NCBI GenBank assembly: GCA_024228495.1 | Contig: JAAETJ010000019.1 | Span: 1 to 37,103, forward strand | DNA length: 37,103 bases | From: a bacterium | GTDB lineage: Bacteria; Pseudomonadota; Alphaproteobacteria; Rhizobiales; JAKIUO01 | Direction of reading: 5' to 3' | Shown: positions 1,829 to 34,892 of the stretch, in pieces | Numbering within the stretch: position 1 is the first letter of the stretch | Layout of the letters: every line of letters begins with the position of its first letter | Translations under genes and position numbers: made by a program | The notes under the pieces: model-generated | The model's database searches: none | Told to the model about the DNA's origin: nothing | What the model saw: only the letters and a program-made list of their open reading frames with translations

Positions 1829-1967
1829 CCATAGCCCCTTAAGAATCCATTTGTACTCAATCATTAACTTTTTTGGATATTTGGGGATTCGGAGTATAAT
1901 AACTGACTACCAAACATCTGTTTATTGCCGTCGATTATGACACATGCCAGAAACACCTCACTTAAAT

Positions 1968-4139
1968 CTACATAAAGCTATGAGGGTCGATGTCGATGGT
2001 CAGCTTGAGAGAGCTCTTGGGGTGAGGTAATGGTGCCAGCCACTGCTTGACATAGGCCTGCATGTCTACTTCACGCTCCGCCTTGATCAGCAGACGAAAA
2101 CGGGCTCGTCCGCGAATCATGAATATGGGGGCTTCAGCTGGCCCAAGCACCCGCAATTTACTCGAGCGTGGCGCGCGACCAGCCAGCATGCGGGCATAGT
2201 TGGCCGCCTCTGATGTCTGGTTCGACGAGACAATGATCGCGGCCAGCCTTCCGTAGGGGGGCAACGCGCCTTTTTCACGGGCCTCGCCCTCTTGTTGCAA
2301 AAACTGGTCGCGGTCTCCCGATACCATGGCCTGCATAACAGGATGCTCTGGCATATAGGTCTGGATCAATCCGCGCCCAGAAATCGAGGCACGGCCGGCG
2401 CGACCTGTAACCTGCTGCAACAGCTGGTAGGTCCGCTCACCTGCGCGCGGATCGCCGTGAGCAAGACCAAGATCACCATCCACCACACCAACCAGCGCAA
2501 GCCCGGGGAAATGATGCCCCTTGGCCACAAGTTGTGTACCGATGATGATGTCGATCTCACGCGCGGTAATCTTGTCCAGCAAAATGCGCATCTCTTCAAT
2601 ATCGGGAATGAGGTCACTCGACAGGATCGCCGTGCGGGCGTCTGGAAAACGCTCGCACACTTCTTCGGCGACCCGCTCAACGCCGGGACCACAGGCCACC
2701 AGGCTATCTTTCTCATCACACGAGGGACAAATGCGCGGCACGGAATTGCTGTGGCCGCAATGATGGCATGTCAGCTTGTTGTGAAAGCGATGCTCCACCA
2801 GCCAGGCGGAGCAATCTGGACATTCAAAGCGATGACCGCAGGTGCGGCACAAGGTGAGCGGCGCATAGCCCCGGCGATTGAGAAATAACAGGCTCTGCTG
2901 GCCGCGCTCAAATACATTATGCATCTCGGTAACAAGCTTTGAAGAAATCCATTTGCCGCGCTCTGGTGGATCGGCTCGCAGATCAATCGAGACGATATCA
3001 GGCAGTTTGGCTCCCGCATAGCGCTCCGTCAATTTGAGATGGCGATAGCGCCCATTGACTGCATTGACATGGCTCTCAATACTGGGGGTTGCCGAACTGA
3101 GCACCACCGGAATTTTTCCTAGCATAGCACGCACCACCGCCATGTCGCGGCCGTGATAAATCAGCTGGCTTTCTTGTTTGTAGGCTGGTTCGTGCTCCTC
3201 ATCGACAATGATCACGCCAAGATCCTTGAAGGGCAAAAACAGACTTGAACGCGCGCCGATAACGGCTCGAATATCGCCCGACGCCACGCCTCGCCAGATG
3301 CGCCCGCGCTGGACCGGAGAGATTTCCGAATGCCAACCCGCCGGTTGCACCCCAAAGCGCTCATGAAAGCGTTTTAAAAACTGATTGGTGAGCGCAATTT
3401 CAGGCAGCATGAACAGAGTTTGGTGCCCCTCGCGCAACGCCTGCGCGATGGCTTCAAACGCCACTTCCGTTTTGCCAGCCCCCGTGACCCCATCGAGCAA
3501 TAAGGTCTCAAACTTTTGGGCCTTGACCGCTTCATGCAAGCTGGATGCAGCGCTTGCCTGCTGGTCATTCAAGGTGGGGACAGCGAAATCTGGATCAGGT
3601 AAGGTTACTGCTTCACTTGTCATCAGTTCGGCCACCAGAGCGCCCGATTTCATCAAGCCATTGACAATCGCAGCGCTAACATCGGCCGCCCGCGCCAGTT
3701 CTTTTTTGTTCCAGACGCGGTCTCCAGCTACTTGCAACACTTTTTGACGCGCTGGCGTCACCTTGTTGGGAATCTGAGGCCCTAGCCGCACCCCCATTTT
3801 GGGCTTAACGGGAGTAAACGCCGCCCTGGCGCTCATAGCTGAGCGCAAAACCATGCCGCGCGGAGCCATTGTATAGTGAGCCACCCAGTCGATGAACTGG
3901 CGCGATACCAGCGGCATGGGTGGCACATCAAGGCGATCAATGATGGTTTTAAGGCGGGATGAATCAACGGGCTTGCCAGAGCCCCCCACCGCTTCATCAA
4001 GCACCACACCAAGGCGTTCTTTGCTCCCCAAGGGAACACGCACAATATCACCTGGCGCAACCTGCAAATCATCCGGCACCAGATAGTCATAAGACATATC
4101 AATAGCCAGCGGCAAAAGAACGGGAGCAGTACGGGACAT
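1968..4139 (-). CDS. priA: Primosomal replication-restart helicase PriA
   Basis: This 723-residue protein matches the usual PriA length. PriA is a 3'-5' superfamily 2 DNA helicase that recognises abandoned replication forks and D-loops and reloads the replisome. The N-terminal DNA-binding domain is followed by a Walker A motif (GVTGAGKTE), a DEEH Walker B box, and the helicase lobes split by an eight-cysteine zinc-binding insertion made of four C-x2-C pairs (CRTC, CPDC, CHHC, CPSC). The late motif Q-V-x-G-R-A-G-R (motif VI) is also present. It starts at 4139, 244 bp from and divergent to xerC, an arrangement common in alphaproteobacteria. No frame damage is seen. Confidence 0.97.
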   Translation of the reverse strand: MSRTAPVLLPLAIDMSYDYLVPDDLQVAPGDIVRVPLGSKERLGVVLDEAVGGSGKPVDSSRLKTIIDRLDVPPMPLVSRQFIDWVAHYTMAPRGMVLRSAMSARAAFTPVKPKMGVRLGPQIPNKVTPARQKVLQVAGDRVWNKKELARAADVSAAIVNGLMKSGALVAELMTSEAVTLPDPDFAVPTLNDQQASAASSLHEAVKAQKFETLLLDGVTGAGKTEVAFEAIAQALREGHQTLFMLPEIALTNQFLKRFHERFGVQPAGWHSEISPVQRGRIWRGVASGDIRAVIGARSSLFLPFKDLGVIIVDEEHEPAYKQESQLIYHGRDMAVVRAMLGKIPVVLSSATPSIESHVNAVNGRYRHLKLTERYAGAKLPDIVSIDLRADPPERGKWISSKLVTEMHNVFERGQQSLLFLNRRGYAPLTLCRTCGHRFECPDCSAWLVEHRFHNKLTCHHCGHSNSVPRICPSCDEKDSLVACGPGVERVAEEVCERFPDARTAILSSDLIPDIEEMRILLDKITAREIDIIIGTQLVAKGHHFPGLALVGVVDGDLGLAHGDPRAGERTYQLLQQVTGRAGRASISGRGLIQTYMPEHPVMQAMVSGDRDQFLQQEGEAREKGALPPYGRLAAIIVSSNQTSEAANYARMLAGRAPRSSKLRVLGPAEAPIFMIRGRARFRLLIKAEREVDMQAYVKQWLAPLPHPKSSLKLTIDIDPHSFM

Positions 4140-26878: not shown

Positions 26879-27511
26879 CTACCGCTTGAGCAAAAATACT
26901 GCCTGTTCGCCGATGAGGTTTTGCAGGAAATATGGAACGACGTAGGGCAGCTTGTAACCATAAGAATTGAGCGTATAGGACTGCCCGATGGTGGCACCGA
27001 GTTCGTCGCACAGCTCGCGAAAATCCTTCAGGGTACAAAAATGGATATTCGGGGTGTCATACCATTTATAGGGCAGATGCGAGGTCTCTGGCATGCGCCC
27101 GGTCAGCAAGAGCTGGCTGCGCAATTTCCAATGGGCAAAATTGGGCAAGGAGACAATCACCCGGTGGCCAATACGCAATAAGTGCTTCAGCACGTCGCGC
27201 GGCTTGTGGGTAGCCTGCAGGGTCTGGCTCAAAATAGCATAGTCAAAGGCATCGTCTGGATAATCCACCAGATCCTTGTCGGCATCGCCTTGTATGACCG
27301 AGAGCCCCTTGGCGACGCTGCGATTGACCCCTTCCTGACGCAATTCAATACCGCGCCCATCGACGCGCTTGCGCTCTTCCAACAGAGCAAGCAGTGAACC
27401 TTCACCAGAGCCCACATCAAGCACACGGGTGCCAGGTGCGACCATGCTGGCGATCAGCAAATGATCGACGCGGATGATCGGTTCTGATCCGTTTGTCAAA
27501 TGCTCGCTCAT
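26879..27511 (-). CDS. metW: Methionine biosynthesis protein MetW
   Basis: The 210-residue protein is a methyltransferase-fold protein of the MetW family ([12 protein letters not shown] near residue 34, then I-E-L-R-Q-E-G-V and [11 protein letters not shown]). MetW acts together with MetX; in several proteobacteria the pair is required for homoserine O-acylation, and MetW is thought to activate or stabilise MetX rather than to methylate. It starts at 27511 with a four-base overlap (ATGA) with metX, so translation is coupled. Family hallmarks F-x-Y-A-I-L-S-Q-T and S-L-P-N-F-A-H-W are present. Confidence 0.94.
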
Positions 27512-28734
27512 GAGGCTTCTCCCGTGGTGCGCGCCGGTTCAAGCCCCGCCTGTTTTGCGGCAGAGCTTAAAAAGCCTTGGATGGCATCAAAAAAGTCCGG
27601 CTCATCAAGCAAAAAAGCATCATGCCCCTTGTCACTTGTTATATCGACAAAACTGACCTTGGCAGCCACAGCATTGAGGGCCTTGACGATGGTACGGGCC
27701 TCTGAGGAGGGATACAGCCAGTCAGAGGTAAAGGACACCACGCAAAAGCGCGTTTTGGTGCCCTTGAACACATCAGCCAGCGTGCCGCCAGCAGCGTGGT
27801 CGGCGGCGAGATCGAAATAGTCCACGGCGCGGGTAATATACAAATAGGCATTGGCATCGAAGCGTTCAACGAATTTGAAGCCTTGATAGCGCAAATAGCT
27901 CTCGATCTGGAAATCAGCGTCAAAGCCAAAGGTCACCTTGTCCCGGTCTTGCAGATTGCGGCCAAATTTTTCCTGCATGGCTTCTTCCGACAAATAGGTT
28001 ATGTGTGCCGCCATACGAGCGACCGCGAGGCCTTTGCTGGGGCTCTCGTCATGATCATAATAGCGCCCTTCGTGCCAATTGGGATCGGCCATGATGGCTT
28101 GGCGGCCCACCTCGTTAAAACCGATATTTTGCGATGAATGGCGCGCTGCCGTAGCAATAGGAATGGCGGTCTTTACGCGGTTCGGGTAGCTTGTCGCCCA
28201 TTCAAGCACCTGCATGCCGCCAATCGAGCCGCCCATCACACAAAACAAAGTGTCGATTTTCAGATAATCAATAAGACTGGCTTGAGCACGCACCATATCG
28301 GCGATGGTAATGACCGGGAAATCCAGGCCGTAAGGTTTGAAGGTGACGGGATTGGGAGAACTTGGTCCGGTAGAACCCAGACAGCCGCCAATGACATTGG
28401 AGCAAATGACGAAATAGCGATCCGTATCAACGGGCTTGCCCGGGCCGACCATGACATCCCACCAGCCCGACTTGCCGGTCAGCGGATGGTCATTGGCTAC
28501 ATGCTGATCACCGGTCAGCGCATGACAGATCAAAATGGCATTACTTTTGTCTTCATTGAGATCGCCATAGCTTTGATAGGCAATGGTATAAGGAGCAATG
28601 GTTTCACCGCTATCAAGATGAAGCGGTTGATCTTCGCGAAAGGTCACGGAAAGACTATCATAGGGAGCTGACACCGGCCTGCTCTTGCCGGATTGGGCGC
28701 CTCGCCCCTCATCGGGGGCATCGGAATGAGACAT
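27508..28734 (-). CDS. metX: Homoserine O-acetyltransferase (MetX)
   Basis: MetX acylates the hydroxyl of homoserine in the first committed step of methionine synthesis; some MetX enzymes use succinyl-CoA, and the acyl donor is not certain from sequence alone. The alpha/beta hydrolase fold shows the catalytic serine in G-G-S-I-G-G-M-Q, the aspartate in T-S-D-W-L-Y-P and the histidine in K-G-H-D-A-F-L. The first active-site block is [13 protein letters not shown] 28734 was chosen because AGGAGG lies just ahead; the longer frame to 28791 runs into the leader. A SAM-II riboswitch and terminator precede it. The product is about 408 residues. Confidence 0.95.
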
Positions 28735-28775
28735 CTGCCTTACCTCCTCGTGACCATGAATCAAATCAGGCACAC

Positions 28776-28808
28776 AAAAAACCGACTTCAACGCATCAAT
28801 AAAGCCGG
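28776..28808 (-). terminator. Riboswitch-controlled intrinsic terminator in the metX leader
   Basis: On the minus strand, CCGGCUUUA (28808-28800) pairs with UGAAGUCGG (28790-28782) over nine positions, counting G-U pairs, around a nine-base loop. Six U (28781-28776) follow directly. It lies about 40 bases ahead of the metX start and just after the SAM-II aptamer. The left arm overlaps a competing stem that pairs GCC and GGG near 28820-28826 with CCC-GGC (28804-28810), giving an antiterminator. Confidence 0.7.
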
Positions 28809-28823
28809 GTTCACAGATCCCTC

Positions 28824-28879
28824 GGCCTTTTTTAGCGACTTTTTTAACGTGGCTGCAAGCCGACCGGCCAAATCACCAC
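28824..28879 (-). promoter_or_regulatory. SAM-II riboswitch upstream of metX
   Basis: On the minus strand the leader contains GUGG-U-GAUUU, then a loop with GGCC, a second P1 strand GCCAC, an A-rich linker (GUUAAAAAAG), and the SAM-II signature GCUAAAAAAGGCC. P1 forms between GUGG (28879-28876) and CCAC. The downstream GGCC (28827-28824) can pair with GGCC in the first loop to close the pseudoknot. Size, order and the conserved GAUUU and GCUAAA blocks fit SAM-II, an alphaproteobacterial class that represses met genes when S-adenosylmethionine is high. The identification is by eye, without a covariance model. Confidence 0.82.
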
Positions 28880-29055: not shown

Positions 29056-29505
29056 ATGAGCTATAAAAAACCCTCGGATGATGAACTAAAAAAAATCCTC
29101 ACCCCCTTGCAATATGATGTCACGCAAAACGAGGGTACAGAGCGACCCTTTCAAAATGCCTATTGGGACGAAAAACGCAAAGGCCTCTACGTGGATATTG
29201 TTAGCGGCGAACCGTTGTTCTTGTCCAGCGACAAATATGATAGCGGCACGGGATGGCCAAGCTTTTCCAAACCGATAAAAGAGGAATTTGTCGTCAAAAA
29301 AACCGACCGAAAACTGTTCTCGACCCGCACAGAAGTACGCAGCTCACAAAGTGACAGTCATCTGGGTCATGTGTTTGATGATGGGCCGCCCTCGACCGGT
29401 CTGCGCTATTGCATGAATTCAGCGTCCATGCTCTTTATCCCGCGCAGCGAACTGGAAAACCAAGGCTATGAGGAATTTATATCTTTGTTCGCAGAATCTG
29501 AATAA
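29056..29505 (+). CDS. msrB: Peptide methionine-(R)-S-oxide reductase MsrB, zinc-free type
   Basis: MsrB reduces the R-sulfoxide of methionine in proteins. The 149-residue protein has [17 protein letters not shown] and the catalytic R-Y-C-M-N-S-A-S-M (Cys). The two C-x2-C pairs that bind zinc in many MsrB enzymes are replaced (V-D-I-V at about residue 40 and S-S-Q-S before D-S-H-L-G-H), so this is the zinc-less subtype. GGAGAG lies ahead of ATG 29056. It is divergent from the metX leader, so methionine synthesis and repair genes share one intergenic region. Confidence 0.94.
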
Positions 29506-31869: not shown

Positions 31870-32526
31870 TTAAGGCATTAATCCGGCTTCAAATGATCCG
31901 TTAGCGGCTTGCGCGCGCAATTTGTTTTCGATGCGCTGGAATTGACCTTTTAGAAGATCACGTTCCACATCGGCCCGTTCTGTAGGAGTATCCGTCATCA
32001 CATGTATGTGAATTTCATTGGCACCAAGCCTTGCCGCTTTCTGGCGAATATGTGCCAAATTAAGACTTGTCGCATCGGCGATTGTTTGACCGATAAATAA
32101 GGGGATTGCCTCGCCATTTTCCAGTTTGCGCACCATAATATAATTGGCTTTGGGCAGTTCAGGGCAGTCTTGCAAACTGTAAACAGAGTGCAAGTAGCGC
32201 TCACCTGTCAGACCATCCCAATAATGGAAACCGTGACCAATATCATTGAGATTAAGGACCGAAGGAGCATTTCCAGCGCCATCAGTATTTACTGCTTCTC
32301 TACCAACAGGGATATTCTGCGATGTCGTAATAAGCCTCAAAGCTGTCTTTCCCATAATGTCCCTGCTATACTTTATATCTATGGTTACGTCATGACTATA
32401 ATAGCCCAATTGTGATAAAATATGGCTCGAACCTGTTCTTTTGGTGAACAATTCCCTAACCCCTTGAGCCCGATAAGCACTGCCATTGGGGTCAATGGAA
32501 AACTCTTTTTCTCTGTTTAACTGCAT
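31870..32526 (-). CDS. Conserved-looking protein of unknown function overlapping nrdJ
   Basis: I do not know this family with certainty. From ATG 32526 the protein has 218 residues, soluble, with no signal or membrane segment. The C-terminal half is the more ordered: H-Y-W-D-G-L-T-G-E-R-Y-L-H-S-V-Y-S-L-x-D-C-P-x-L-P, I-M-V-R-K, then S-L-N-L-A-H-I-R-x-K-A-A-R-L-G-A-N-E-I-H-I-H-V-M and D-V-E-R-D-L-L. It resembles a class of short alphaproteobacterial proteins of unknown function that I recall only in outline. The start lies inside the last codons of nrdJ (about ten bases of overlap), so it is probably translationally coupled to the ribonucleotide reductase. An accessory role for NrdJ is inference only. 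Confidence 0.75.
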   Translation of the reverse strand: MQLNREKEFSIDPNGSAYRAQGVRELFTKRTGSSHILSQLGYYSHDVTIDIKYSRDIMGKTALRLITTSQNIPVGREAVNTDGAGNAPSVLNLNDIGHGFHYWDGLTGERYLHSVYSLQDCPELPKANYIMVRKLENGEAIPLFIGQTIADATSLNLAHIRQKAARLGANEIHIHVMTDTPTERADVERDLLKGQFQRIENKLRAQAANGSFEAGLMP

Positions 32527-34892
32527 TTTGAATATCCACACGAACGACAATTATGACACCCTTCCTGGTAGACCAGAGCGGGCTGAGAACATTTGGGACA
32601 ATAGCGCGCTTTACTCGCTTTCATTTCCCTCTCTCCTTTTTCCTCCCCGCCGGATTGCAAGAGAAACCCGGTATCAATCAGATGCTTTTCAACTACTTCA
32701 CCGATCGCTGCCAACAGGCTTGGCACATAGTGACCGTTCATCCATTGCCCGCCGCGGGGATCAAACACCGCTTTCAATTCTTCAACGACAAAGGACACAT
32801 CTCCGCCGCGCCGGAACACCGCCGAGATCATCCGCGTAAGCGCCACAGTCCAAGCATAATGCTCAAGATTTTTTGAATTGATGAAAATTTCAAAGGGCCG
32901 ACGCCGCTTATTGAGGATGACGTCATTAATGGTGATATAGGTTGCGTGATCGCTATCCGGCCAACGCAATTTATAGGTATATCCAGCCAATGTTGCGCCG
33001 CGCTCCATCGGATCGCTTAAATAGTGCACATCATTACCCGATTGCGATAGATTATACGTCGCCTTTTGCAGGCCATGCAGCGCTGGCAACGGCAACGCAG
33101 ATTGGGTGGTAACGGCACCTGTATCCTGGGGCTGATCATCAATTGTAACATCAACCGGCTTCTTGCCGCTATCCGTATCAGACCCGCTTTTCAAAACAGA
33201 CCCGGTGATGGCATTTGGCCGGTAGGTCGTACAACCCTTGAGGCCCAGCACATACGCATCGGCGTAAATCGACTTGAAGCTGCTAAACGAAATATCCTGC
33301 GAGCAATTTATGGTTTTTGAAATGGCACTATCAACAAACGGTTGTAGCGCAGATTGCATGGCCAGATGATCGCCCGGCGTCAAATCCGCGACCGTTGTAA
33401 AACTGTCTGGCAAAGAGGCATCAGCGCCATGCAGCTGCTTGTACAGATTATAAGTGTAATCCTCGATCTGCTCATCATGGGATAATCCGTTGTGGTCACG
33501 AAAAGAGCGCTGATAGGACAGATCGAATATGGGCTCTATGCCGCCCGAGACATTGCCCGCTAGCAAGGAAATGGTGCCAGTCGGCGCAATCGAGGTCAAA
33601 AGCCCGTTGCGAAGCCCATGTTCTTCGACATGCTTGCGCGTCTCTTTTTGCAAAAACGTCCATTCAGGAGACCCGAGATGCTGCGTAGCGTCATAAAGAG
33701 GAAAACTGCCCTTTTCACGTGCCAGATCGGCGCTAGCCAAATAAGCAGTATTTTGAACAAGGCTCATCCAGCGCGCCGCCAACTCGCGTGCCGCCTTGTC
33801 TCCATAGCGCTCCCCGCACATGGCAAGCGCATCGGCCAGCCCTGTGATCCCAAGACCAATGCGCCTTTTTGCCCTGGCTTCTTTTTTCTGCGCTTTTAAA
33901 GGATAGCCGGAAATATCGATAATATTATCAAGGAACCGCACAGCAACACGGACCAACTCAACCAGCCTAGCTTCATCAAGACGAGCTTCTTTTTCAAATG
34001 GCTGCTTGATCAGGCGAGTCAGATTAATGGAACCCAGTATGCAAGCCCCATAGGGAGGCAAGGGCTGTTCGCCGCAAGGATTGGTCGCGTAAATTGTTTC
34101 ACAATAGGATAGCTTGTTGCGCTTGTTGAGCTGGTCCATGAACAGCACACCAGGTTCAGCGCGCTCATAAGTAGCACGCATGATCTTGTCAAAAAGCCTG
34201 GTGGCTTTCACTGTCCCATATGTCTTGCCATCAAAAAAAAGGCGCCAGTCAACCTCCTCATCCACCGCTTTCATAAAGGCATCACTGATCAATACTGACA
34301 GATTGAAATTATTCAATTGCCCCGACTGCGACTTGGCATCGACAAATTTTTCTATATCGGGATGATCGACACGCAAGGTCGCCATCATCGCGCCTCTACG
34401 AGCGCCCGAAGATTGTATGGTCCCACACATGGTATCAAACACGTGCAAAAAACTGACCGGTCCCGCCGCATCAGCCCCGACCCCGCGTACCAGTGCACCC
34501 GCCGGCCGCAGAGTCGAAAAATCAAGACCAATCCCTCCGCCCTGCTGCATGGTCAGGGCGCCTTCACGCAAAGTCTCAAATATGGAGGAGGTATCATCCT
34601 CTATCTGGTTCATGACAAAACAATTGAACAAGGTCAGTTGACGCCCAGCCCCTGCGCCCGCCAGAATACGTCCTCCGGGAAGAAAGGCGAAATCTTCCAT
34701 CGCCTCATAAAACCGCTTGCGCCATTTGGCTCGATCAACCTTTTTCTCAGCCTTCGCAACCGCTTTCGCGACACGCCGCCAGCTATCCTCAACGCGCAAA
34801 TCTATTAACGAACCATCATCACTTTTCAAGGCATATTTCTTTTCCCAGATCATTTTTGAAATGGTCGGCAGCACAGCATTACTAATAGTCAT
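32517..34892 (-). CDS. nrdJ: Adenosylcobalamin-dependent (class II) ribonucleotide reductase
   Basis: Class II reductases use adenosylcobalamin to make deoxyribonucleotides with or without oxygen. The 791-residue protein has the (alpha/beta)10 barrel with F-N-C-F-V at the first redox cysteine, G-G-I-G-L-D-F-S, G-A-R-R-G-A-M-M, N-P-C-G-E-Q-P-L (thiyl-radical cysteine), S-I-A-P-T-G-T-I-S and a late C-T-T-Y-R-P-N. A TSCPD-like domain (about 640-745) and a terminal cysteine-rich tail with C-x2-C pairs (Y-C-P-K-C, C-R-S-C-G-Y) follow, the latter probably re-reducing the active site. It is shorter than the roughly 1200-residue NrdJ of many alphaproteobacteria. AAGGAAGG precedes ATG 34892. Confidence 0.93.
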   Translation of the reverse strand: MTISNAVLPTISKMIWEKKYALKSDDGSLIDLRVEDSWRRVAKAVAKAEKKVDRAKWRKRFYEAMEDFAFLPGGRILAGAGAGRQLTLFNCFVMNQIEDDTSSIFETLREGALTMQQGGGIGLDFSTLRPAGALVRGVGADAAGPVSFLHVFDTMCGTIQSSGARRGAMMATLRVDHPDIEKFVDAKSQSGQLNNFNLSVLISDAFMKAVDEEVDWRLFFDGKTYGTVKATRLFDKIMRATYERAEPGVLFMDQLNKRNKLSYCETIYATNPCGEQPLPPYGACILGSINLTRLIKQPFEKEARLDEARLVELVRVAVRFLDNIIDISGYPLKAQKKEARAKRRIGLGITGLADALAMCGERYGDKAARELAARWMSLVQNTAYLASADLAREKGSFPLYDATQHLGSPEWTFLQKETRKHVEEHGLRNGLLTSIAPTGTISLLAGNVSGGIEPIFDLSYQRSFRDHNGLSHDEQIEDYTYNLYKQLHGADASLPDSFTTVADLTPGDHLAMQSALQPFVDSAISKTINCSQDISFSSFKSIYADAYVLGLKGCTTYRPNAITGSVLKSGSDTDSGKKPVDVTIDDQPQDTGAVTTQSALPLPALHGLQKATYNLSQSGNDVHYLSDPMERGATLAGYTYKLRWPDSDHATYITINDVILNKRRRPFEIFINSKNLEHYAWTVALTRMISAVFRRGGDVSFVVEELKAVFDPRGGQWMNGHYVPSLLAAIGEVVEKHLIDTGFLLQSGGEEKGEREMKASKARYCPKCSQPALVYQEGCHNCRSCGYSKCS

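Follow-up and report, generated by a model that had tools for sequence, protein, structure and literature searches.

Does the SAM-II element ahead of metX in the window (the whole stretch of DNA that was analyzed, 37,103 nucleotides) control its operon at the level of transcription or of translation? The aptamer itself leaves little ambiguity. A cmscan search placed the Rfam family RF00521 at 28889-28810 on the minus strand with 72.2 bits (E 1.6e-14), twice the gathering score of 36, and the match covers the model end to end (positions 1-79 of 79). RF00521 is the family that also goes by the names SAM-II, SAM_alpha and metA motif. Stem P1 joins GUGG (28879-28876) to CCAC (28852-28849), a pairing that the sequence shows and the model consensus shares. 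The P2 pseudoknot is composed of a 5' strand GGCC (28866-28869, minus strand), which falls on conserved model positions, and a 3' strand GGCC (28824-28827, minus strand), which is seen in both sequence and Rfam alignment and is common to the antiterminator discussed below. The conserved GAUUU (28874-28870) was read in the sequence and the alignment, and the alignment also supplies the GCUAAA of the core (28831-28836, minus strand). The P1 stem, the pseudoknot and the core motifs that characterize SAM-II are thus all present, 5' of a methionine/SAM biosynthesis gene, metX, which is followed by metW. Judged from these features, the leader 5' of metX is a genuine SAM-II riboswitch. A preliminary description of the locus had listed the same elements, all of which lie where it put them, on the minus strand, and the covariance-model search that it proposed gave the above match. 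When the interval it delimited was folded as plus strand, the result was no better than that of shuffled sequences, which is of no consequence for a minus-strand element.

The preliminary description was also right in naming metX as the regulated gene: the frame at 27508-28734 (minus strand) belongs to the homoserine O-acetyltransferase family (NCBIfam PRK00175.1, 550.9 bits). It overlaps its operon partner metW (26879-27511, minus strand; TIGR02081, 246 bits, above cut-off). The start of metX is most likely the ATG at 28734, which the sequence provides with a Shine-Dalgarno GAGGAGG (28749-28743, minus strand) 26 nt past the U-tract of the terminator. This start was preferred to the TTG at 28791 given by the longest open reading frame call, which runs over the terminator. 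Two further candidates were rejected, a leader AUG at 28757 that is not present in congeners, and a small frame from a GUG (~28815, shortly past GAGGG), whose start codon is missing in congener G004 and whose length is not conserved. The gene msrB (peptide-methionine R-sulfoxide reductase; 29056-29505, plus strand) diverges from the metX leader, so that genes for methionine synthesis and methionine repair have a common intergenic region. Elsewhere on the minus strand, the window holds a 6S RNA (RF00013, 35130-35292; 55.9 bits, gathering score 46.4) and an open frame of 226 aa (31870-32550) without an NCBIfam match.

Directly 3' of the aptamer, three strands compete for pairing and can form two hairpins that have CCGGC in common, with six U after them (28776-28781, minus strand). 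In the antiterminator (28801-28829, minus strand), AAGGCCG(A)GG at 28829-28820 pairs with CCCGGCUUU at 28809-28801, a folding of 9 bp and one bulged A at -11.7 kcal/mol. In the terminator (28782-28808, minus strand), CCGGCUUUA pairs with UGAAGUCGG in a hairpin of 9 bp and a 9-nt loop, folding at about -10 kcal/mol. The middle strand contributes the same eight nucleotides to both, and the two hairpins are mutually exclusive and similar in predicted stability. The segment 28808-28782 with its U6 has the makings of an intrinsic terminator, a GC-rich hairpin and a U-tract before an open reading frame, and the exclusive antiterminator draws its strands from both aptamer and terminator. Folding and relatives therefore bear out the two exclusive stems of the preliminary description, CCGGC and six U included. 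The antiterminator it drew exists and uses the pseudoknot strand, but the pairing it gave (GCC-GA-GGG with CCC-GGC) is not the most stable one, which is that of AAGGCCG-A-GG with CCCGGCUUU. Note that a simple terminator scan did not list the 28808-28782 hairpin because its loop of 9 exceeds the scan maximum of 8.

Each of the five metX leaders of the genus retains both helices. Four segments (pseudoknot strand, CCGGC arm, GUCGG and U-tract) are identical among them, and the inner stem and loops are variable. The terminator is lengthened to 12 bp in two congeners, and that of the window is the weakest among the five. A fold of the full leader also paired GAGGGAUCUG over a long distance with the region of the metX start; this pairing, which does not vary among close relatives and is disrupted in G003, was set aside.

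When the growing, ligand-free transcript was folded, the antiterminator appeared from 28803 and stayed through the U-tract, as expected of a switch whose default state is ON. At equilibrium, the thermodynamic fold of the full-length leader favored the terminator even without SAM, with energy models that leave the pseudoknot unscored; the switch must therefore be kinetic and decided during transcription.

These results lead us to propose, with a probability of roughly 0.87, that metX-metW are under transcription attenuation by the SAM-II riboswitch, OFF with SAM. The observed foundation of this model is the membership in the aptamer family together with the two competing helices, which are conserved and covary. 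Its predicted steps are SAM binding, termination and the direction in which the switch works. At low SAM, CCCGGCUUU would be captured, once transcribed, by the pseudoknot's 3' strand (AAGGCCGAGG), and the antiterminator would keep the 5' arm of the terminator occupied, allowing RNA polymerase to read through to metX. Binding of SAM would lock the GGCC strand in the pseudoknot and release CCGGCUUUA; the freed strand would then form the terminator hairpin, and transcription would end in the U-tract, some 41 nt short of the metX start. The OFF logic foreseen in the preliminary description is the same, and is consistent with the covariance model and the relatives. Attenuation is the most likely mode of control because the Shine-Dalgarno of metX lies beyond the U-tract.

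The generality of the arrangement was surveyed in related alphaproteobacteria. RF00521 is present in 47 of the 61 genomes of the relatives set and, at the level of the order, in 146 of 199 genomes. Leaders were drawn from SAM-II loci, further regions and MetX-found loci (201 in total, 191 distinct), and the criteria were fixed: a terminator hairpin of -8 kcal/mol or lower, immediately followed by six positions of which five or more are T, together with a duplex between pseudoknot strand and terminator 5' arm of -6 kcal/mol or lower. The three-strand switch was found in 143 of the 191 distinct leaders (75%), against a mean of 19.8 leaders (range 14-27) when the downstream regions were shuffled. 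By gene, it occurs in 50/64 metX, 91/121 metZ-type and 1/5 metA leaders, and over the 143 leaders the two helices have on average 6.8 nucleotides in common. Covariation of the shared strand with each of its partners, which the preliminary description had asked of relatives, is present: at several sites in the switch, joint changes of the three strands replace C:G:C with U:A:U, and G:C:G with C:G:C, U:A:U or A:U:A, in triples taken from structures fitted to each sequence. When arms were exchanged between leaders, the native combination paired better than the exchanged one in 140/143 cases for the terminator and 103/143 for the antiterminator. Since the sequences are related, so that p-values overstate independence and are not exact, and since the triples come from fitted structures, it is the shuffle and swap controls that carry weight. 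The arrangement in the window leader is more than chance, as it recurs in all five congeneric metX leaders and in the 143 surveyed leaders.

The second SAM-II of the genome (L044, ~1900-2050, minus strand; G000:C240) precedes an O-succinylhomoserine sulfhydrylase (metZ) gene and has a three-strand switch that is built differently (GGCCGAGCU / CCCCCAGCUUGGCC / terminator with U6). In five SAM-II leaders of the survey (L195, L196, L197, L198 and L204), every terminator test was negative. The four that were inspected at the sequence level (L196, L197, L198 and L204) contain an additional base within the conserved GGUGAUUUG, e.g. GGUGGAUUUGGG, and the group of five may have another expression platform.

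Attenuation could be accompanied by a basal translational brake, in which the U-tract plus GUG would pair with CAC plus the Shine-Dalgarno in the read-through mRNA. The corresponding hairpin (28781-28743, minus strand) is predicted in 5/5 congeneric metX leaders with pairing probabilities of 0.59-0.88, compared to shuffle means of 0.03-0.20, and the real value was reached by 0-1 of 30 shuffles. However, poly-U readily pairs with any purine-rich site, and covariation of this pairing in the four alignable sequences was within that of shuffles (120/500). Pairing of the Shine-Dalgarno was moreover equal in the two folds compared, so that no SAM dependence was seen, and the hairpin is missing from the minimum-energy folds of metZ leaders in the genus. 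Across all leaders there was no general trend (Wilcoxon p 0.92), and we rejected the hairpin as a general SAM-II feature. Such dual control is consequently unlikely, and it appears doubtful from these models that in the metX leaders of the genus the U-tract has a second job in a dedicated Shine-Dalgarno hairpin. If it did, one SAM-II leader would combine transcriptional attenuation and a translational brake on the same strand.

A purely translational switch, in which SAM binding would hide the ribosome-binding site, is the picture of SAM-II given in a 2024 review (PMC10907184), and has its structural model in the crystallized Sargasso Sea metX SAM-II RNA (PDB 2QWY). That RNA has the same aptamer fold and the same position before metX, but its ribosome-binding site is part of the pseudoknot, which results in translational control (PMC10907184). 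A GAGG is present after the pseudoknot in the window leader, and in S. meliloti metA translation starts 74 nt beyond a similar GAGG sequence (PMC9373788). Here, however, metX has a strong Shine-Dalgarno of its own outside the aptamer, about 75 nt past the pseudoknot strand and 26 nt past the U-tract, which makes direct occlusion inapplicable, and the terminator and antiterminator are conserved. We therefore consider this switch very improbable. Least credible of all are chance hairpins behind an aptamer that acts via Rho or RNA stability, since, although Rho is usable by riboswitches and the S. meliloti SAM-II influences RNA stability too (PMC9373788), the counts (143/191 versus 19.8 in shuffles) and the covariation on both helices speak against them.

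The preliminary description regarded transcriptional control as under-documented for SAM-II, a premise that is explained by the drawing of the class as translational in the 2024 review (PMC10907184) but does not hold, given the terminators reported or predicted in four studies (PMC1273637, PMC2258182, PMC5756330, PMC9373788). The discovery paper of 2005 noted a putative terminator after many of the SAM-II aptamers and suggested that control is of the OFF type (PMC1273637), a genome-wide survey of 2007 found SAM-II to be the class most often accompanied by terminators in alpha- and beta-proteobacteria (PMC2258182), and a regulon reconstruction listed metX among SAM_alpha targets (PMC4239095). 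In Gluconobacter oxydans, where a terminator and antiterminator are likewise predicted but in another family and before an O-succinylhomoserine sulfhydrylase gene, RNA-seq coverage of the SAM-II leader was 20-fold that of its open reading frame (2018; PMC5756330). In Sinorhizobium meliloti, SAM binding is predicted to form a Rho-independent terminator in the leader of metZ rather than metX, and the short riboswitch sRNA RZ goes up under high SAM (2022; PMC9373788). The RNA data from both species are consistent with termination. Compared with the alphaproteobacterial SAM-II elements that have intrinsic terminators (PMC1273637, PMC2258182), our leader is alike in aptamer, gene class, position of the terminator between P2 and the open reading frame, and predicted OFF logic; only details differ, namely the host lineage, the 9-bp terminator with its 9-nt loop and the antiterminator with one bulged A.

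The metX leader is the usual SAM-II layout in these bacteria, described since 2005, and an ordinary but clean example that adds a fully readable case to a well-populated kind. The presence of the three-strand switch in 75% of 191 leaders, together with covariation on both helices, backs the view of 2007 that alphaproteobacteria use SAM-II mostly for transcriptional switching, and runs against the common review drawing of SAM-II as a device that occludes the ribosome-binding site.
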